Origin: Desulfosporosinus nitroreducens
Lineage (GTDB): Bacteria > Bacillota > Desulfitobacteriia > Desulfitobacteriales > Desulfitobacteriaceae
Direction: 5' to 3'
DNA length: 39,422 bases
Assembly: GCF_023897015.1 (NCBI RefSeq)
Contig: NZ_JAMHFY010000036.1
Coordinates: 1-39,422, forward strand
Below the pieces are notes generated by a model. It ran no database searches. It was not told the DNA's origin and saw nothing but the letters and a program-made list of their open reading frames with translations. The translations under genes were made by a program, and so were the position numbers. Numbering within the stretch: the first letter of the stretch is position 1; every line of letters starts with the position of its first letter. Below, piece by piece: positions 5,005-30,370 of this stretch.

Positions 5005-5062
5005 GAAGAACAAGCCTCCATATATAGCGAAAAAGGATGCCTTAGCTGCCACCGGAGATTCG
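5005..5062 (-). pseudogene. Fragment of a BceB-type permease gene
   Basis: On the minus strand this reads ESPVAAKASFFAIYGGLFF, against ESPVEAKESFFAIYGGLFF in the intact permease at 21347-23344 (plus strand 21728-21785). At DNA level only a handful of bases differ over about 58. Similarity stops on both sides, so this is a relic of a second BceB-type gene or a copied piece, not a functional gene. Confidence 0.8.
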
Positions 5063-5146
5063 TTCCGTATCTATCCCTGAAAGCCCCTCCCTTTTCGCCT
5101 GCCAAGCTCATATAAACACTGCTTTGCATCTGTAATGGCTGGATCA

Positions 5147-9352: not shown

Positions 9353-11122
9353 CTAATCAGTGATGTCTCTCGGCATCACCAAAGTCTCTTTTCTATAAAG
9401 CTTCAGCTTGCGCACTACGGTAGATTGATTAATGCCTAACATTGAAGCAGCTTTCCTGGTACTTTGGGTCAAATGATAGGCTTGTAAGATCATTTTCTTC
9501 TCTGTTTCAGCTAAGGCATCTTTTAAAAGACTAAGCGGAGGCGGATCTGCAGCAGTTGTTTCTTTAGAGCCATTGCCCTTAAATAAAGAAGGATCGATCC
9601 CTTCATCAGGGCTTAAAATTACCATGCGTTCAATGGTATTTTCGAGTTCACGAATGTTTCCCGGCCAATCGTGTTCCGTCAAGGCTTGCATGATTTCCGG
9701 AGAAATTTTGCGATTAAGGTTATATTTCTTAGAGAATTTTCGCATGAAGTACTCCACTAATATAGGAATATCGATTACACGTTCGCGGAGAGGCGGGACA
9801 TAAATATTGACAACATTTAAGCGATAAAAAAGATCCTGGCGAAACGTCCCCTCTTTAACCATTTGCTCTAAATTTCGGTTTGTCGCTGTAATCAAGCGCA
9901 CATCAACAGAAATACTCTGCGTCCCACCCAGGCGGGTAATCTCCTTTTCTTGAATCACCCTTAGTAACTTGACTTGAAGGTCAAGAGGAAGTTCACCCAC
10001 TTCATCGAGGAATAAGGTTCCATTTAATGCAAGTTCAAAGATTCCAGGCTTCCCCTTCTTGGCTGCCCCTGTAAAGGCTCCTTCCTCATAACCAAATAGT
10101 TCAGACTCTATCAGACTCGGGGCGAGAGCTCCACAATTAATTTTAATAAAAGGTCCGGTAGATCGTTGGCTTGCTTCGCGAATCATCCGAGTTATAATTT
10201 CCTTGCCTACGCCGGATTCCCCAGTGATTAGTACATTTGTATCCACTCGCGCCACACGAATGGATAATTCCACAACTTTTCGGATTTCTGGGCTATTAAA
10301 GATAAAGCCCTCCTCAAGTGCTTTTATCTTTAAGCGGGATAGTTCAGAGCGATAGTTATCCATCTCTTGAGTAAATTTATGAAGACTTCGTCTTAGGGAA
10401 TTTAGTTCAGTGAGGTCTCGTATATTGGCAATTACACGTACTACCTTTCCCTTAGTATTGAAAACAGGGGTCCCTGTAAACAGAATTTCTCTGCCCTTAA
10501 TTTCTTGAATCATAGTAGCGGAGTTAAGGGTTTGGAGGACTTTGGATGTGACAAGTTCTGATAAGTAACCTCTTGTGACAAGTTCTGTTACAGGTTGTCC
10601 TGTAAAATTCTCTTCAAGGGGAATACCAAGCATTAATCGGTAGGCCTTGTTCATGCGGATTATGCAGCCTTGACCATCTGAAATTACTAAACCATCAGCC
10701 GAAGAATCGATCAAGGCGCTGAGTTCGCTATTCAGTTCTTGAACAGAATGTATTTGGTGAGAGACCAATTCCAGGTCAGTAATATCTAAAAAAGAGCTTA
10801 CTGCTCCGGTTATTTGCCGATTAATGATAATGGGAGTGCGATTGGTTAATACTGTTCTGTCTCCAATCTGCAGCTTAACCCCATATTGGGGCTTAGCACT
10901 ATGTAAAACATCTTTGATCCTAGACAAAGGAATAAGTTCATTAACATCACGCCCAATAATTTCTTCACCGCAGACCATAAACTTCTTGGCAGTTTCGTTG
11001 ATATAGGTTATTTTTCCATTGATATCAACAGCGATAATTCCACTGTAGATTGAGTCAAGCACAGCTCGAAGTTCATTCATAAGAATTCCTGGCTTCTGGC
11101 TCTCTGTACTTTCATAGCCCAT
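9353..11122 (-). CDS. PAS-PAS-AAA+-HTH sigma-54 transcription activator
   Basis: I chose ATG at 11120-11122 because GGGGGG precedes it; the earlier TTG has no ribosome binding site. The 589-residue protein has two PAS sensor domains (about residues 15-110 and 130-240), a short coiled linker, an AAA+ domain with GESGVGKE, GAFTGA (the sigma-54 contact loop), LFLDEVGELP and a WPGNIRELEN segment, and a C-terminal Fis-type helix-turn-helix (STRKAASMLGINQSTVVRKL). No receiver domain is present, so it probably senses a small molecule or redox state through PAS. It is the obvious regulator of the adjacent sigma-54-type promoter and mutase operon. Confidence 0.95.
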   Translation of the reverse strand: MGYESTESQKPGILMNELRAVLDSIYSGIIAVDINGKITYINETAKKFMVCGEEIIGRDVNELIPLSRIKDVLHSAKPQYGVKLQIGDRTVLTNRTPIIINRQITGAVSSFLDITDLELVSHQIHSVQELNSELSALIDSSADGLVISDGQGCIIRMNKAYRLMLGIPLEENFTGQPVTELVTRGYLSELVTSKVLQTLNSATMIQEIKGREILFTGTPVFNTKGKVVRVIANIRDLTELNSLRRSLHKFTQEMDNYRSELSRLKIKALEEGFIFNSPEIRKVVELSIRVARVDTNVLITGESGVGKEIITRMIREASQRSTGPFIKINCGALAPSLIESELFGYEEGAFTGAAKKGKPGIFELALNGTLFLDEVGELPLDLQVKLLRVIQEKEITRLGGTQSISVDVRLITATNRNLEQMVKEGTFRQDLFYRLNVVNIYVPPLRERVIDIPILVEYFMRKFSKKYNLNRKISPEIMQALTEHDWPGNIRELENTIERMVILSPDEGIDPSLFKGNGSKETTAADPPPLSLLKDALAETEKKMILQAYHLTQSTRKAASMLGINQSTVVRKLKLYRKETLVMPRDITD

Positions 11123-11169
11123 TAAAGGTCCCCCCAATCGTTCAGTCTGGAATCCCTGTTAAATTCTAA

Positions 11170-11273
11170 AATAGCTCAATTTTGAACAGGTCTAGGCCAG
11201 TTCGCTACTTTGCTCCATACTTTGAGCAGTCATGAAGCAGTCCCTTACTTTTTACGATACTATTCTATCATGA
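11170..11273 (-). pseudogene. Relic: BceR start region fused to BceS core
   Basis: On the minus strand, TGATAGAATAGTA then a G-rich site and CTGCTTCATG matches the upstream region and start codon of the response-regulator gene at 30333. Immediately after the ATG, the sequence reads TAQSMEQSSELA and a stop, matching TAQSMEQNRELA in the histidine kinase at 28614-29660 (plus strand 29131-29189). It looks like a Bce two-component operon that lost everything between the regulator start codon and the kinase core, then decayed. Confidence 0.75.
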
Positions 11274-11349
11274 AATTGACATACTGGGTGTAGCGGAACC
11301 CATTTTAGCCAGGAGCTTGTTCAGCCTCTGAGGCAAGCTTTTCACTGAA

Positions 11350-11378
11350 GAAGCCGATTGCATAATGCAACCGGCTTC
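11350..11378. terminator. Stem-loop downstream of HEPN gene
   Basis: GAAGCCG-ATTGCAT and its complement form a 12-bp stem with one internal mismatch and a 3-nt loop. It follows the HEPN gene stop by about 55 bp on the minus strand. The following tract is not strongly T-rich, so it is a moderate candidate. Apart from this and the relic, 11123-11432 holds no gene. Confidence 0.5.
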
Positions 11379-11432
11379 GACCATGAACTATTATTTAATT
11401 TTCAGAGTCCAATTACCGTTAAATCACAAAGC

Positions 11433-11816
11433 TCATATTGTTTGGCATAGTATGAAATCATGTATTGCTTTCACTCCGGCTAACGCATGATTCATATCGT
11501 TTTCCTCCAGCGCCAAATCCATCGGATATCTCGGCTGTACGCCATAAGCCGTCAGGTCTGAGCAATGGTCGGCGATGTCCGCAAAGGCGTCGGAAAACTT
11601 TAAACAAAGCTTATTAAGCTGATCTAAATCATGCGTTTTCGGAGGATTGACCCCGTTTAGGACAAGATAGCCCTTCAGATACTTTTCGGCGGACTGCTGG
11701 CAGTGATAACAGATGATTTCAATGGGAACAGGCTTCATGTTGGTTAAGTATTCTGCGCTTCGCATATCCATCACCGCAAGATTGAACCACTCCTGCGCTC
11801 CTGTTTTATTGTCCAT
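11433..11816 (-). CDS. HEPN-domain protein of MNT/HEPN pair
   Basis: I chose ATG at 11814-11816, preceded by AGGGGTTG. The 127-residue helical protein shows EWFNLAVMDMRSAEYL and the family signature YHCQQSAEKYLKGYL, with KTHDLDQL after it. This is the HEPN branch paired with minimal nucleotidyltransferases. I do not see a clear R-x4-6-H RNase motif of HepT toxins. The start overlaps the end of the nucleotidyltransferase gene by 11 bp, so the two are translationally coupled. The pair is usually described as a toxin-antitoxin or nucleotide-modification module; which activity applies here is not shown. Confidence 0.85.
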   Translation of the reverse strand: MDNKTGAQEWFNLAVMDMRSAEYLTNMKPVPIEIICYHCQQSAEKYLKGYLVLNGVNPPKTHDLDQLNKLCLKFSDAFADIADHCSDLTAYGVQPRYPMDLALEENDMNHALAGVKAIHDFILCQTI

Positions 11817-12132
11817 ATAAAACAACCCCCTCTTCCATGATTGTTCTCTCAATGGTAGGGGCTATTTTACGCTTATTAAATATATTCTCCTTCCCAACGA
11901 CAATATCAACGGGCATGGTCTTTTTGTCACGGATTGCTCTATGGATTAAGCGCATCGCGTCAATTTCACGGATATCCGAGCTTTCCGGCATCACCACATA
12001 CAAATCAAGGTCTGAATCAGCATTGGGTACACCGGCGGCATATGACCCGAAAAGATAAATCTTTGCTACCGGAACAGTTTTTATAATAATACCCTTAATG
12101 GTTTCAAGCTCGTCCTGTATACGTTTTTCCAT
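11806..12132 (-). CDS. Minimal nucleotidyltransferase (MNT) of MNT/HEPN pair
   Basis: This 108-residue protein of the DNA polymerase beta-like nucleotidyltransferase fold has the core IYLFGSYAAGVPNADSDLDLYVV, with the GS motif and DxD metal ligands, and a third acidic position in MPVDIVV. MNT proteins in such pairs can AMPylate or otherwise neutralise the partner HEPN protein. ATG follows AGGGGTG. It overlaps the HEPN gene that follows. It is the first gene of a two-gene unit set among decayed regulatory genes. Confidence 0.9.
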   Translation of the reverse strand: MEKRIQDELETIKGIIIKTVPVAKIYLFGSYAAGVPNADSDLDLYVVMPESSDIREIDAMRLIHRAIRDKKTMPVDIVVGKENIFNKRKIAPTIERTIMEEGVVLYGQ

Positions 12133-12320
12133 ATAGCACCCCTGTTCCTGAAGACAAATATTTACATTTGCATTATAGCATACCCCTTCTCATTTTCCAA
12201 CGCACTATTCTGCTCTTCACGGGTTTGCTTGACGCGAACCTTCGATTTGACATCGTATTTAATTAATATAATACAGATTTAATCACAGTTTGACGGCTAA
12301 ACAACCGTATTGAATAATAA

Positions 12321-12352
12321 CTCCCGTCCTTCAATTTTCCGAAGGACGGGAG
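12321..12352 (-). terminator. Strong stem-loop at end of kinase relic
   Basis: CTCCCGTCCTTC and GAAGGACGGGAG form a perfect 12-bp stem with an 8-nt loop. On the minus strand TTATTATTC follows. It lies just downstream of the histidine-kinase relic and probably terminated that gene. 12133-12320 shows no gene. Confidence 0.65.
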
Positions 12353-12400
12353 CATACTCCCGGGTTACACCCTCTCTTTACTTCATAGGCTTTAGGTTTA

Positions 12401-12651
12401 TCCCCTGTATACCGGCAATCGTGGTAATGGGGTTTTGAGTTCATGGGTCACATTCAAAGAAGCGTTTATTTTCTTGCTGGACTTGCTCCAAAACGTCTTT
12501 GTCATGCTGAATGACGGCAATCTGCTCCCGGATCTTTTCCACCATCATTTTGAAATGAGCCGCCAGGTAACCGATTTGATCCTGTTAACGAATGTTTAAA
12601 TTGGGATTGTAATTGCCCTGGGAACCACTGTCGCTAAAATTAGTGAGAGAC
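12401..12651 (-). pseudogene. Histidine kinase relic (HAMP to H-box)
   Basis: Reading leftward on the minus strand, frame pieces encode SGSQGNYNPNLNIR, a stop, QDQIGYLAAHFKMMVEKIR, EQIAVIQHDKDVLEQVQQE and NKRFF. A one-base shift leads to NVTHELKTPL, the phospho-acceptor H-box of sensor kinases, and a second shift to TTIAG. This is the end of a HAMP linker followed by HisKA. Nothing of the ATPase domain remains before the terminator. It is a different kinase type from the BceS-like one at 28614. Confidence 0.8.
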
Positions 12652-12657
12652 TCCTCC

Positions 12658-12707
12658 CGGGCTTGTACCAAGAATCTTACGCACGTAAGATTCTTGGTAC
12701 AAGCCCG
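12658..12707. repeat. Long palindromic repeat, copy 2
   Basis: This is a 50-bp inverted repeat with half-site CGGGCTTGTACCAAGAATCT and its complement; only the central C/A pair is unmatched. It is nearly identical to the element at 3402-3453. It abuts the kinase relic. Confidence 0.85.
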
Positions 12708-12734
12708 CAGGTTACCTCCTGCTCTCCGACTGAA

Positions 12735-12797
12735 AAGCCGATTGCCGGTAGCGTCCATCTGCCGGCAGTGGGTTTTTCATCATAAAGGAGCTTTTTT
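12735..12797. repeat. Hairpin-containing repeat, copy 2
   Basis: TTGCCGGTAG and CTGCCGGCAG can pair, with wobbles, and are followed by CATAAAGGAGCTTTTTT, resembling the element at 4921-4988. Between here and 13206 I see no gene. That stretch includes a 9-bp inverted repeat (GTTTATTAT/ATAATAAAC, 13008-13035) and a 12-bp palindrome ACGAATATTCGT (12959-12970). Confidence 0.45.
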
Positions 12798-13206
12798 GAA
12801 TAGCACCAGATAATTTTTTCTCCAACCTCGATGTCACCTGCCGGACTCTTATTTCCTCATCACCGGACGGGAGTATATTTAAGAGATTAACAAGTTGAAT
12901 TTTGTCGCAAATAGCTTTGGTAATGCTCGATCGCCATAAATATTAATAATATTCAAATACGAATATTCGTTTGTAGAATCTTTCTAAAAGCGCCAAATGC
13001 CATTGAAGTTTATTATGCCTGAGGGTATAATAAACGCAGTAAAACTAGTTTGAATTATCAGAACAATTAAACTTATATGATATAATCCTTTAAAACAGGG
13101 CTTTTTTGGCGATCGCTTTCTTCTATTCATCAAAAAGTTAATAGTTGTAAAGTAAAAAATGCCGTTGTCATCATAGTCTATATTTATGGAAAGGAGTTAC
13201 TAAATA

Positions 13207-13335
13207 ATGAAAAGAAGAGCATTGTCAATGGTCTTACCCCTGGATATTTTAATAGTACCCGAGCCATTACTTGGAAAGTACACCTTCGAAATTGATGGGG
13301 TTTGTGATCTTTGTGATAAAAAGGAAATGAGATAA
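13207..13335 (+). CDS. Possible 42-residue protein
   Basis: ATG follows AAAGGAG at about 10 nt and opens a 42-codon frame. The product begins MKRRALSMVLPLDILIV and ends with a CDLCDKK pair of cysteines. No family is recognised. The good ribosome binding site and the CxxC argue for a real small gene. The short length and lack of homologues in view argue against. It lies about 120 bp before the EtfD-like gene. Confidence 0.4.
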   Translation: MKRRALSMVLPLDILIVPEPLLGKYTFEIDGVCDLCDKKEMR

Positions 13336-13456
13336 ACATGAACTCCACAGTATGTTTTACCCTTAGCTATAACAAAAACAGAAGCTTCTAAAACATAAAT
13401 TCAATCTGCAAAGCTCTTGTTCAGGTGCTTCGCAGATCAAATGAGGAGAGATGAGC

Positions 13457-15496
13457 ATGGCCACACGTCAAGTGTATTGGAACATTGAAGGAGAGCATTG
13501 GCTCTATTTGTTCTTCATCATTGCCCTTATTTTCTTCGGCTACGGAGTGTACAAACGAGTGTCACTTTGGAAATTAGGTCAGCCTGAGAATCGCTGGAAG
13601 AATCTATGGCCAGGCCTAAAAGATATTATTGTCTATGGATTCGGGCATAAGAGAATCCTCAAAGATTCTTATCCGGGAATTATGCACCTTTGTATTTTTT
13701 GGGGATTTGTATTCTTAGCCTTTGCCACAGCAATAATTACTTTGCAAGCTGATTTTGGCTTACAAATATTCCACGGCTGGCTTTATCTGTTTATAAAGCT
13801 GACCGCAAATCTCTTTGGCTTGGCGGCTATCCTCGGTATCCTAATAGCAGCATATCGTCGCTATATCCAAAGACCCGACCGCCTAGACAATAAAACGGAT
13901 GACGCAATTACACTAGCCTTAATATTTGTAATACTGCTAACCGGCTTCCTAATTGAAGGAGCTCGGATTGCGGCAGCACCTGATCCCTGGGCCGGATGGG
14001 GATTTATTGGCCAATGGATATCAATTCCCCTCAAAGCCTATCTCAACCAGGCACAGTTACTTTCCTTGCATAGATTTTTATGGTGGTTCCATCTACTCTT
14101 AGCAATGTCGTTCATCGCTTACTTCCCTTATTCGAAGCTGTTCCATGTACTATTGGGTCCATTAAATATGGTTTTCCGTAACAGAGGACCCATCGGAATC
14201 CCTGAGCTTATAAATTTTGAAGATGAAAGTCTGGAAACCTTTGGGAAAAGTCAGCTTCGCGAATTTTCTTGGAAAACTTTATTCAATACGGATGCTTGCT
14301 TGCGTTGTGGACGTTGTCAGGATAACTGTCCAGCTTATTTAAGTGGAAAACACTTAAATCCCAAAAAGATCATTCAGGATATGCGGGTTTTAATGGAAGA
14401 AGAAGGCACGGCCGTTAAAGCCGCACAGAAAGACGCTTTAGCCAATCAAACAGCGGAAGCCGAAACCGTAGCAACCGAAGAGACCGTCGAACTGCCGGTA
14501 CCTTCTCTCATAGGTGAAGTTATTCCTGAGGAAGACTTATGGTCCTGTACTACCTGCCGTGCTTGTGAACAGCAATGCCCAGTTTTCGTCGAGCATGTTG
14601 ATAAAACGATTGATCTGAGACGACATTTAGTCTTAATGGAAACCAGGTTCCCTGCTGAGGCTCAGTTAGCCTTCAGAAATATGGAGAATAACGGGAATCC
14701 CTGGGGCATCGGTTGGACAACACGGGCCGACTTTTTAAAAGGATTAGGAGTAAAAACCTGCGCAGAAGATCCTACAGCTGAATATTTATATTGGCCTGGC
14801 TGTTCAGGTGCCTTTGATGCACGTAACCAGAAAGTCTCCGCTGCCTTAGTCAAACTGTTACAAAAGGCTGGTGTTCATTTTGCAATCTTAGGCAACGAAG
14901 AAAAATGCTGTGGTGACTCTGCCCGTAAATTAGGAAATGAATACTTGTTTTATACGTTAGCCTCAGAAAACATCGAAGTCATGAAGGGATATGGGGTTAA
15001 GAAAATTATCACTCAATGTCCTCACTGCTTCAACACTCTTAAAAATGAGTATCCTCAATTCAATGGGAATTTCGAAGTTGTGCACCATTCAACCTTCTTG
15101 CTTGAGCTCGTAAAGTCCGGAAAACTTGCGCTAAACAATATTTCCGGAAAATCAATTACCTATCATGATTCTTGTTATTTAGGCCGCTATAATCAGATAT
15201 ATGCTCAACCCCGTGAATTGCTCAAAATTGCTGGCCTTGAAATAAAAGAAATGGCTCATAGTGGTGAAAAAAGCTTCTGTTGCGGGGCCGGCGGCGGTCG
15301 AATGTGGCTAGAAGAACATGAAGGCAACCGCATCAATGTCATGCGTACCGACGAAGCAATTGCCGCTAAGACAGATTATGTAGGTACCGCATGTCCTTTC
15401 TGCTTAACCATGATCGTCGACGGAATAGCGTCTCGTGAAGCGGGAGTAGCCTTAAAAGCTCTCGATATTTCCGAAATTTTAGAAGGTTGTATATAA
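13457..15496 (+). CDS. EtfD-like membrane Fe-S oxidoreductase (HdrD/DUF224 type)
   Basis: I chose the second ATG (13457), since GAGGAG lies 8 nt before it and only 2 nt before the first. The 679-residue protein has about six membrane helices in the NarI/HdrE-like N-terminal part (to residue 240). Then come two 4Fe-4S motifs, CLRCGRCQDNCP and CTTCRACEQQCP, and two CCG-domain repeats with EKCCGDSARKLGN and SFCCGAGGGRMW. Relatives accept electrons from electron-transfer flavoprotein and reduce menaquinone during acyl-CoA oxidation. No EtfAB genes are adjacent. A link to the mutase pathway about 2.3 kb away is plausible but inferred. Confidence 0.9.
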   Translation: MATRQVYWNIEGEHWLYLFFIIALIFFGYGVYKRVSLWKLGQPENRWKNLWPGLKDIIVYGFGHKRILKDSYPGIMHLCIFWGFVFLAFATAIITLQADFGLQIFHGWLYLFIKLTANLFGLAAILGILIAAYRRYIQRPDRLDNKTDDAITLALIFVILLTGFLIEGARIAAAPDPWAGWGFIGQWISIPLKAYLNQAQLLSLHRFLWWFHLLLAMSFIAYFPYSKLFHVLLGPLNMVFRNRGPIGIPELINFEDESLETFGKSQLREFSWKTLFNTDACLRCGRCQDNCPAYLSGKHLNPKKIIQDMRVLMEEEGTAVKAAQKDALANQTAEAETVATEETVELPVPSLIGEVIPEEDLWSCTTCRACEQQCPVFVEHVDKTIDLRRHLVLMETRFPAEAQLAFRNMENNGNPWGIGWTTRADFLKGLGVKTCAEDPTAEYLYWPGCSGAFDARNQKVSAALVKLLQKAGVHFAILGNEEKCCGDSARKLGNEYLFYTLASENIEVMKGYGVKKIITQCPHCFNTLKNEYPQFNGNFEVVHHSTFLLELVKSGKLALNNISGKSITYHDSCYLGRYNQIYAQPRELLKIAGLEIKEMAHSGEKSFCCGAGGGRMWLEEHEGNRINVMRTDEAIAAKTDYVGTACPFCLTMIVDGIASREAGVALKALDISEILEGCI

Positions 15497-17814: not shown

Positions 17815-17933
17815 TTTTTTATTCGGCACCTGAAACTCACTTCATTTTTTTGACCTGTATATAAAAACAACGGCATCAAGATTTGCTGTCCTGATGCCGT
17901 TGTTTTTTCCTGCCTGAAATTGTAATTTTGAGG
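17815..17933. repeat. Repeat B, copy 1
   Basis: About 115 bp is nearly identical to 21214-21329. It includes TATTCGGCACCTGAAACTCA, a terminator stem and GCCTGAAATTGTAATTTT. The second copy forms the 3' untranslated region of the BceB-type gene, so this copy may mark the former end of a similar gene. Confidence 0.85.
17866..17904 (-). terminator. Terminator inside repeat B copy 1
   Basis: A perfect 13-bp stem, AACAACGGCATCA and its complement, with T-tracts on both sides, so it could work in either direction. Confidence 0.75.
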
Positions 17934-28613: not shown

Positions 28614-29660
28614 TCACTCCATCACCATATCCACCGTATCCAGGCCGATCTTCACTTTCGTGCCCTTGCCCGGCTCCGCTTCGATCACCATGGTGTGGGA
28701 CAGCTGGGTCAGGATCCGCTTGCACAGATAGAGACCGATCCCTGTGGACTTTTTATCCCTTCGGCCGTTATAACCGGTAAAGCCTTTTTCAAAGACACGA
28801 GGCAGGTCTTCCCCGGCAATGCCTATCCCTGTATCGGCGATCACCAAGGTTTTGGCATCGTCCCTTTCCAGATAAATGGAGATCTTCCCCCGGTTGGTGT
28901 ACTTCAAAGCATTGGACAAGATCTGCTCAATGACAAACACCAGCCATTTTTCATCCGTCAGCACGTCACAGTTCAGCTGGGAGAAATCCAGGCTGATCTT
29001 CTTACGGATAAACATCTTGGCATATTTGCGCACCGCCTGCCGGACGATATCATCCAAAGCATAGCGTTTCAGCACAAAATCGGAGGAAGGGCTCTCCAGC
29101 CGCAGGTATTGGAGCACCATTTCCACATACTGTTCAATTTTAAACAGCTCCATGGCCAGCTCCCTGTTCTGCTCCATACTCTGAGCAGTACTCCCATCGT
29201 CCTCCGCCGAGGGGAGGGACTGGAGGAGGAGGCCCATGGCGGCGATAGGGGTTTTGATCTGATGGGCCCATAGGGTATAATAATCCACCAAATCCCTCCG
29301 CTCATTATCCGCCCGGGAAACCAGCCTGATCTTATCTCGGTAGAGGGCGGTGATCAGTTCCTGATACTCCTTTTCCAATAATCCCTTAGCCTCAGGGAGC
29401 CCTTCCAGGCTGAACATAATCTGTTTCTGCAAATCCCGGAGCACTCTGCAGCGTTGATAATAGCCATGGAAATCCGCCGTCAGGACCAGGAGAGCCAGGA
29501 CGGCACAGAGCAAAGCGGCATAAAGCACCGCTTCCGCCGGCAGTTGATACAGATAAAACACCAAGGCAAAGATACCGGCAAAGATGCAGTACAAAAGAAT
29601 TCCCCGGCTCTGCCCTCGGAGGTACTGCTTCCCCGCTGCCCCAAGGCTGATCTCTTTCAT
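28614..29660 (-). CDS. BceS-type intramembrane-sensing histidine kinase
   Basis: This 348-residue kinase has two membrane helices close together (about residues 22-62) with almost no extracytoplasmic loop, as in BceS. DYYTLWAHQIKTPIAAM is the H-box, ILSNALKYTNRG the N-box, IADTGIGIAGEDLPRVFEKG the G1/F region, and STGIGLYLCKRI the G2 box. Such kinases sense through a BceAB-type transporter, present here at 21347-24104. The start is 2 bp after the regulator stop. Part of this gene is echoed by the relic at 11170-11230. Confidence 0.95.
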   Translation of the reverse strand: MKEISLGAAGKQYLRGQSRGILLYCIFAGIFALVFYLYQLPAEAVLYAALLCAVLALLVLTADFHGYYQRCRVLRDLQKQIMFSLEGLPEAKGLLEKEYQELITALYRDKIRLVSRADNERRDLVDYYTLWAHQIKTPIAAMGLLLQSLPSAEDDGSTAQSMEQNRELAMELFKIEQYVEMVLQYLRLESPSSDFVLKRYALDDIVRQAVRKYAKMFIRKKISLDFSQLNCDVLTDEKWLVFVIEQILSNALKYTNRGKISIYLERDDAKTLVIADTGIGIAGEDLPRVFEKGFTGYNGRRDKKSTGIGLYLCKRILTQLSHTMVIEAEPGKGTKVKIGLDTVDMVME

Positions 29661-29661
29661 A

Positions 29662-30333
29662 TCACATCACCATATACCCTATCCCTTTTTTGGTCACAAT
29701 AAATCCGGCCAGCCCTGCCGCCTCTAATTTTTTGCGCAGCCGGGTCATGTTGACCGTCAGAGTGTTTTCGTCGATATAACTGTCCGTTTCCCACAGGCGG
29801 GCCATGATTGCTTCACGGCCCACGACCTTCCCTTTATTCTCCAGCAGCATTTTCAGGATCTTATAATCGTTCTTACTCAACTCGACCTTGCTGTCATTAT
29901 AGGTTAAGGAAGCATCGCTGGTATTAAGGATGGCTCCCCGGTGCTCCAACAAATCCGTCTGTCCGGCAAAATCATAGGTCCGGCGCAGCATGGCCTGCAC
30001 CTTGGCCGTTAAGACACTCAGGTCAAAAGGCTTGGCAATAAAATCATCACCGCCCATATTGATGGCCATGACGATATTCATATTATCGGCAGCGGAGGAA
30101 ATAAAGATGATCGGTACCTTGGACACCTTGCGGATCTCGCTGCACCAGTGGTAGCCATTGTAAAAAGGCAGTGAAATATCCAGGAGCACAAGCTGGGGAT
30201 TGAAAGAGATAAACAGAGACATCACCTGCTCGAAGTCGGTCACACATTCCCCTTCCCACCCCCAGGTCCCGATATGGTTTTTAATCGCTTTGGCAATGAC
30301 GGCATCGTCTTCAACAATCAGGATCTTATGCAT
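29662..30333 (-). CDS. BceR-type OmpR-family response regulator
   Basis: This 223-residue regulator has an N-terminal receiver domain with ILIVEDD acidic pocket, phospho-acceptor Asp in LVLLDISLP (about residue 52), FISSA switch and FIAKPFDLSVL with the conserved Lys. The C-terminal winged helix has VELSKNDYKILKMLLENKG and DENTLTVNMTRLRKKL. ATG follows AAAGGGAGGG. It is the first gene of the block and probably controls the inverted-repeat promoter before the BceA gene. Confidence 0.95.
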   Translation of the reverse strand: MHKILIVEDDAVIAKAIKNHIGTWGWEGECVTDFEQVMSLFISFNPQLVLLDISLPFYNGYHWCSEIRKVSKVPIIFISSAADNMNIVMAINMGGDDFIAKPFDLSVLTAKVQAMLRRTYDFAGQTDLLEHRGAILNTSDASLTYNDSKVELSKNDYKILKMLLENKGKVVGREAIMARLWETDSYIDENTLTVNMTRLRKKLEAAGLAGFIVTKKGIGYMVM

Positions 30334-30357
30334 GAAGCAGACCCTCCCTTTTCATGC

Positions 30358-30370
30358 TACTATTCTATCA
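30358..30370 (-). promoter_or_regulatory. Candidate promoter of BceRS genes
   Basis: On the minus strand TGATAGAATAGTA includes a -10-like TAGAAT, 25-30 bp before the regulator start. The identical 13-mer occurs at 11258-11270 in front of the relic of the same operon, so it predates the duplication. Confidence 0.45.

Follow-up and report, generated by a model that had tools for sequence, protein, structure and literature searches.

A three-species mosaic of dinB, bceR and bceS pieces upstream of a PAS/sigma-54 activator gene in Desulfosporosinus nitroreducens, probably the deletion scar of a separate Bce copy

The window analyzed here is a stretch of 39,422 nucleotides (positions 1 to 39,422 of contig NZ_JAMHFY010000036.1) from Desulfosporosinus nitroreducens, a sulfate-reducing bacterium of a free-living genus. 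Its minus strand carries an intact, resident pair of Bce-type two-component genes, as well as a gene for a PAS/sigma-54 activator that precedes a methylmalonyl-CoA mutase-type operon. The likely start codon of this regulator gene is the ATG at 11122, while the listed open reading frame begins at a TTG at 11137. Upstream of it lies a mosaic, hereafter the scar, which is longer than first described and consists, along the minus strand, of a piece of dinB, the leader and start codon of a bceR gene, an internal piece of a bceS gene, and the 5' region of the regulator gene. The features on which the analysis is based are the following, where G numbers denote genomes and G000 is the organism's own:

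5005-5096, minus strand: second Bce scar of comparable build, just downstream of the mutase operon: a leader-like, ribosome-site-type GAAAAGGGAGGGG read by eye at 5096-5084, followed at 5066-5005 by a piece from the interior of bceB
9353-11122, minus strand: PAS/sigma-54 activator gene, downstream of the scar (Pfam Sigma54_activat, 6.9e-69; PAS, 1.4e-16)
11123-11175, minus strand: 5' region of the regulator gene with a ribosome-site-like GGGGGGACC, matched in 9 of the 29 genus genomes, own included
11176-11187, minus strand: join to the regulator 5' region, GTTyAAAATTGA (by eye)
11176-11230, minus strand: internal bceS piece, residues 158-176, 82% identical to 29134-29189
11192-11233, minus strand: open frame of 13 codons, MTAQSMEQSSELA, plus stop (frame reading)
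11231-11270, minus strand: bceR leader, 85% identical to 30331-30370, with the extended -10 TGATAGAAT at 11270-11262, an altered Shine-Dalgarno stretch, and the ATG at 11233-11231
11271-11295, minus strand: spacer of 25 nt, similar across three scars (alignment of scars)
11296-11321, minus strand: piece of dinB (DNA polymerase IV, NKLLAKMGS region), matching the dinB genes of G003, G011, and G018 at 96% over 26 nt
28614-29660, minus strand: intact resident bceS-like kinase (Pfam HATPase_c; N-terminal hydropathy peaks, short linker)
29662-30333, minus strand: intact resident bceR-like response regulator (Pfam Response_reg and Trans_reg_C)

The central part of the mosaic had been noticed in a preliminary description, which regarded it as a bceR start region fused to codons from the middle of bceS and as what is left of another bceRS pair after a deletion running from the bceR start codon to a point inside bceS. 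The fusion is borne out, and its derivation from a further pair is supported. A blastn search of the own genome with positions 11130-11300 as the query returned the bceR leader match with an E value of 1.0e-5 and the bceS match with an E value of 6.8e-8. In local alignments, each half was compared with 1000 dinucleotide shuffles: the leader half scored 50 (shuffle mean 13.2, maximum 24) and the bceS half 60 (mean 17.3, maximum 29), with none of the 1000 shuffles reaching the real score in either case, so that the comparison with shuffled sequence that had been proposed as a check leaves both real scores far above the shuffle maxima. The bceS match begins at the base following the ATG and is in the bceS frame. 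The codons after the ATG do come from the middle of the kinase, more precisely from beyond its H-box at residue 133, and they do form an open frame, but this comprises the ATG plus 12 codons rather than 12 in all. The core likewise lies at 11170-11273 as described, but the scar continues to 11321. Three things had been missed: the presence of a dinB piece, the fusion to the regulator 5' region, and the agreement of two leader sites with the type found in G003, G016, and G008, with one site agreeing instead with the neighbouring operon.

The flanks of the fusion add further detail. In the scar of G007, the dinB piece measures 65 nt (92%), and the intact dinB gene of G003 is recognized by the Pfam IMS family (4e-36). 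A 266-nt internal dinB piece (92%) was also seen in G018 (L155 2146-2411; C59 24145-24410), where the intact gene is on another contig. The last 5 bases of the spacer agree with the bceR leader of G003 and G016, and the matches to loci L028 and L037 start at 11275. At the other end, GTTyAAAATTGA is common, with one mismatch, to bceS and the scar-free regulator 5' region of G016 (a 12-nt near-identity, by eye); at the bceR/bceS join, no shared word was found by eye.

Among 60 genomes searched (the own genome and 59 relatives), two others carry the scar, namely G018 (94% over 140 bases) and G007 (85% over 171 bases), with the same gene adjoining in each. Its recurrence at the same place in two further species of this genus excludes an assembly error and dates the scar to before their split; the PAS gene differs by 10-12% at fourfold degenerate sites among G000, G018, and G007, so that the scar is at least as old as the divergence of these three. 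A tree of the PAS gene, from which G019 was omitted on account of its truncated gene, sets G000, G018, G007, and G011 apart from G016, G025, G015, and G008 with a support of 0.999. G011, which belongs to the clade of the scar genomes, lacks the scar except perhaps for its last bases. The shuffles, together with the copies in two other genomes, rule out a chance match, and we consider the probability that the mosaic reflects chance resemblance or an assembly artefact to be negligible.

The DNA around the scar holds several further features. Adjacent to it, at 11433-12132 on the minus strand, is a toxin-antitoxin-like MNT/HEPN pair (Pfam NTP_transf_2 and HEPN). G018 has no such pair at the scar-side spot, and a short repeat, CAATCGGCTT...TCAGT, flanks the extra DNA of the window on both sides. 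A long near-perfect palindrome, GGGCTTGTACCAAGAATCTTACG..., occurs upstream of the regulator in two species (window 12659-12706; L028, about 10988-11037). A kinase-like remnant suspected by eye at 12444-12581 was discarded, as Pfam gave no kinase family, and the region from 11050 to 13460 contains no structured RNA with an Rfam match at E 0.1 or better.

The parent genes resemble those of Bce modules, whose kinases, in the available part of PMC3023708, are defined by two N-terminal membrane segments with a linker of under about 11 residues. In a simple hydropathy profile, the resident bceS peaks at residues 20-38 and 44-62, with an overlapping peak at 37-55, which agrees with this definition. 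The same source defines the permease by ten membrane segments and an outside loop of about 200 residues; the 668-residue FtsX-type permease lacks hydropathy peaks from about residue 318 to about residue 541, which fits a large loop, but its segments cannot be counted from the profile. The parent Bce system is a putative sensor of peptide antibiotics. Among the six best named matches of bceS, five are from Desulfosporosinus (90-97% identical) and one is from Desulforamulus (87%). Whole bceRS pairs are present in eight of the 29 genus genomes, own included, and a ninth has a partial copy. In G003, the first ABC exporter gene has been reduced to two short pieces between bceS and a flavodoxin-like gene (L037 8024-8498).

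The scar is too short for a tree of its origin, but some of its sites differ between the types of intact operon. The leader bases GTATCGT are shared by the scars, G003, G016, and G008, whereas the five window-type operons (G000, G018, G007, G011, and G006) have GTAGCAT; a contrary site, CTGCTTC, agrees between the scars and the window-type operon. The bceS piece of the window scar is closer to the bceS of G016 (87.5%) than to that of the window (82.1%). Given the shared GTATCGT and the closer G016 bceS, the lost copy would most likely have belonged to a separate, older lineage rather than having come from the neighbouring operon at 28.6-30.3 kb, and a recent duplicate of that operon is not favoured despite the CTGCTTC agreement.

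The regulator gene has a different upstream region in some of its relatives. In four of the nine genomes where its 5' region was matched (G016, G025, G019, and G008), the exact word GCAGGGTTTAAGAACTT stands approximately 120 bases upstream of the ATG. Allowing up to 3 mismatches, this word was not found in the window or in the fetched stretches of G018 and G007, nor in those of G011 and G015, which have other sequence there. As G011 and G015 are without the element and G011 is also without the scar, the regulator gene can evidently live without either. The word is not a dispersed motif, with one match (2 mismatches) in the own genome against one in the reversed control. Because it is present in four relatives and absent from the three scar genomes, the history behind the last join most likely removed an earlier upstream element, which is a candidate promoter. 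The regulator gene of G019 is continuous, after its first codons, with the interior of the mutase gene (L036 6050-6300, minus strand), as if the intervening genes had been deleted.

Bce genes and their debris recur around this metabolic operon. In G016, the regulator gene shares its strand with an intact bceRS pair upstream of it. The distance from the end of this pair to the regulator ATG is 3.0 kb, with pirin-like and AraC/GyrI-like genes (named by ORF reading) in between, and bceAB lies beyond the mutase operon, also on the same strand. The relatives had been proposed as a place to look for an intact operon at the scar site; apart from this more distant G016 pair, the search gave nothing, in that bceRS directly adjoins the regulator gene in none of the nine genomes with its 5' region. 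G019 has a bceA leader upstream of its truncated regulator gene, and in G011 a bceS piece 0.8 kb upstream of the regulator shares its reading frame with the end of a DUF2196 gene that we take to be YwbE-like (L033 8240-8347, minus strand). The bceB piece of the second scar in the window (90% over 62 nt, E 1.5e-17) is found in G018 as well (L031 773-848). Downstream of the mutase operon of G025, a weak match to the bceR leader (E 0.009) is followed by a bceA leader and a bceA piece, the order being that of the operon. The debris in G019, G011, G000, G018, and G025 is compatible with Bce copies having been lost several times through internal deletions, and is no proof of a single ancestral copy extending across the scar site. 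A wider comparison of the intergenic DNA of the window with the ORFs of the fetched loci gave 15 uncontrolled matches, many of them through the choice of start codon, from which no rate of scar formation is drawn.

Two other short resemblances were recorded. A 35-nt stretch at 17896-17930 on the minus strand matches (94%) the sequence just downstream of bceB in G003 and is also found in G011 (L033 14221-14255). In G019, relatives of the MNT/HEPN genes lie between two bceS pieces, one covering residues 63-144 and the other 248-285 (L149 4807-6060, minus strand); a simple insertion into a single gene would have left these pieces in the reverse order.

We interpret the stretch upstream of the PAS/sigma-54 gene as the deletion scar of a separate Bce copy that formerly stood there on the same strand, and assign this reading a probability of roughly 0.7. 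A separate and most likely older Bce copy would have been located upstream of the regulator gene. One deletion would have taken bceR and the first part of bceS, thereby joining the bceR ATG to bceS codon 158, and a further deletion, acting through the 12-nt near-identity, would have removed the DNA from bceS codon 176 to the regulator 5' region. The dinB piece would have become joined in front of the bceR leader, and the earlier upstream element of the regulator would have been lost along with the successive deletions. We infer that deletions, and not inserted patches, brought the pieces together, because the order and strand of the pieces follow the operon and because G016 keeps intact genes upstream.

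Counting against this history is the need for three or more deletions. Short-patch illegitimate recombination offers another route, by which short dinB, bceR leader, and bceS pieces would have been copied into a gap during break repair or illegitimate recombination, with no whole Bce copy ever present here. The pieces are indeed merely 26-65 nt long, G011 has its bceS piece fused to a DUF2196 piece, and isolated bceS pieces occur elsewhere. Moreover, at least 22 kb separate bceRS from the close dinB in the four genomes that keep this gene (G003, G007, G011, and G018), which leaves the dinB join unexplained. However, the bceR leader and the bceS piece stand in operon order and strand and are joined in frame, the pieces in G025 are likewise in operon order, and the intact genes of G016 are upstream on the same strand. 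We therefore regard an origin by inserted patches as unlikely.

A separate question is whether the scar does anything in its present place. All three scars and all eight intact bceR leaders have the extended -10 in identical form, and it starts 137-149 bases before the regulator ATG across the three scars (about 148 in the window). Between G000 and G007, the leader and the part upstream of it differ at 5/90 sites, compared to 14/58 for the bceS piece and join (Fisher p 0.002, with the groups picked after the alignment had been seen). Relative to fourfold sites in two neighbouring genes, the leader is not significantly slower (5/90 vs 61/533, p 0.10). The bceS piece changed at 8/36 and 9/36 sites in the two pairs involving G007, while between G000 and G018 it is no faster than the leader part (1/36 vs 3/91). 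The bceR promoter left in the scar may now transcribe the regulator gene, which would make it a candidate promoter capture, but we hold this view tentatively and at somewhat less than even odds. A stronger version, in which the bceR promoter would have replaced the earlier upstream region of the regulator and been kept by selection in one clade, with the bceS codons serving only as untranslated leader, is less likely than not.

It is a real possibility, albeit again short of an even chance, that the deletion history is right and the scar is nevertheless neutral, in which case the leader would drive nothing and would owe its survival to chance and to the short time elapsed. The leader divergence that is not significantly below that of fourfold sites, the altered Shine-Dalgarno stretch, and the absence of the scar from G011 would all fit such a neutral scar, and so would the promoter signals: no good -35 was seen, and a sigma-70 promoter scan found nothing on the strand of the scar. 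On the other hand, relatives have another element where the scar stands, so that the gene would need some other promoter, and both the invariant extended -10 and the faster change of the bceS piece in the two G007 pairs speak against mere neutrality.

The preliminary description also held that a ribosome binding site and a short frame had been kept, and neither claim is supported by the comparison of the three scars. The Shine-Dalgarno stretch, GGGAGG in the window bceR, reads GTAAGG, GGAAGG, and GGAAAG across the three scars (GTAAGG in the own scar), all unlike bceR. The frame has 13 codons in the own scar, whereas that of G018 has 36 and that of G007 has 17, and each stops at a different and unrelated end point. 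Owing to these lengths and the changed ribosome site, a conserved peptide is unlikely, and the frame is most likely an accident rather than a peptide gene. A functional leader peptide or upstream ORF controlling the regulator gene would be in keeping with the open frame that follows a genuine start region in each of the three scars, and with the alignable first 13 codons. However, the bceS piece changed at 8/36 sites between G000 and G007 against 61/533 fourfold sites (p 0.06), and with the disparate ends and altered ribosome stretch this makes such a role very improbable.

If the promoter was indeed captured, the decay of a spare antibiotic-sensing operon would have rewired a metabolic regulator. 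The scar provides a three-species example of debris from a lost operon occupying a place where, in related genomes, a live gene is preceded by different sequence, and it thereby opens 'promoter capture through operon decay' to a single transcription-start experiment. Bce genes in the genus appear to have broken up more than once, and of the short, still recognizable fragments left behind, several lie around this one metabolic operon. A literature search found no paper pairing Desulfosporosinus with BceAB.

Bce modules of Firmicutes have undergone numerous transfers, duplications, and losses, according to the accessible text of PMC3023708. The parent genes resemble the BceRSAB modules described there in comprising a response regulator, a short-linker kinase with two membrane segments, an ABC ATPase, and a long-loop permease, whereas the scar itself encodes no working part of a module. 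It is also akin to the pseudogene remnants of decaying genomes such as those of Rickettsia, as far as these are covered in the available part of PMC2374718, in that gene pieces are left after a gene has been destroyed. Unlike such remnants, it belongs to a 5.5-Mb genome of a free-living genus, and what survives includes promoter-like sequence ahead of a live gene. A close parallel is the deletion-born fusion described by Kaul et al. (2026 preprint, PMC12803068), where the beginning of one ORF becomes attached, through a deletion, to a later portion of a second ORF; in its accessible part, the preprint also names local promoter capture at deletions and reports no clear new function of a fused product. 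In the same manner, the scar joins the bceR leader and ATG in frame to bceS codon 158, with both ancestors identifiable. It differs from the fusions described there in that its parents come from one operon type, its ORF is tiny and was cut again, and its deletions are stacked. The end of the second ORF was not kept, the bceS match stopping at residue 176, and no new gene was formed; the likely beneficiary would be the transcription of the next gene rather than a fused protein. With these differences, the scar is probably a further case of the known deletion-born fusion, with a possible promoter capture.
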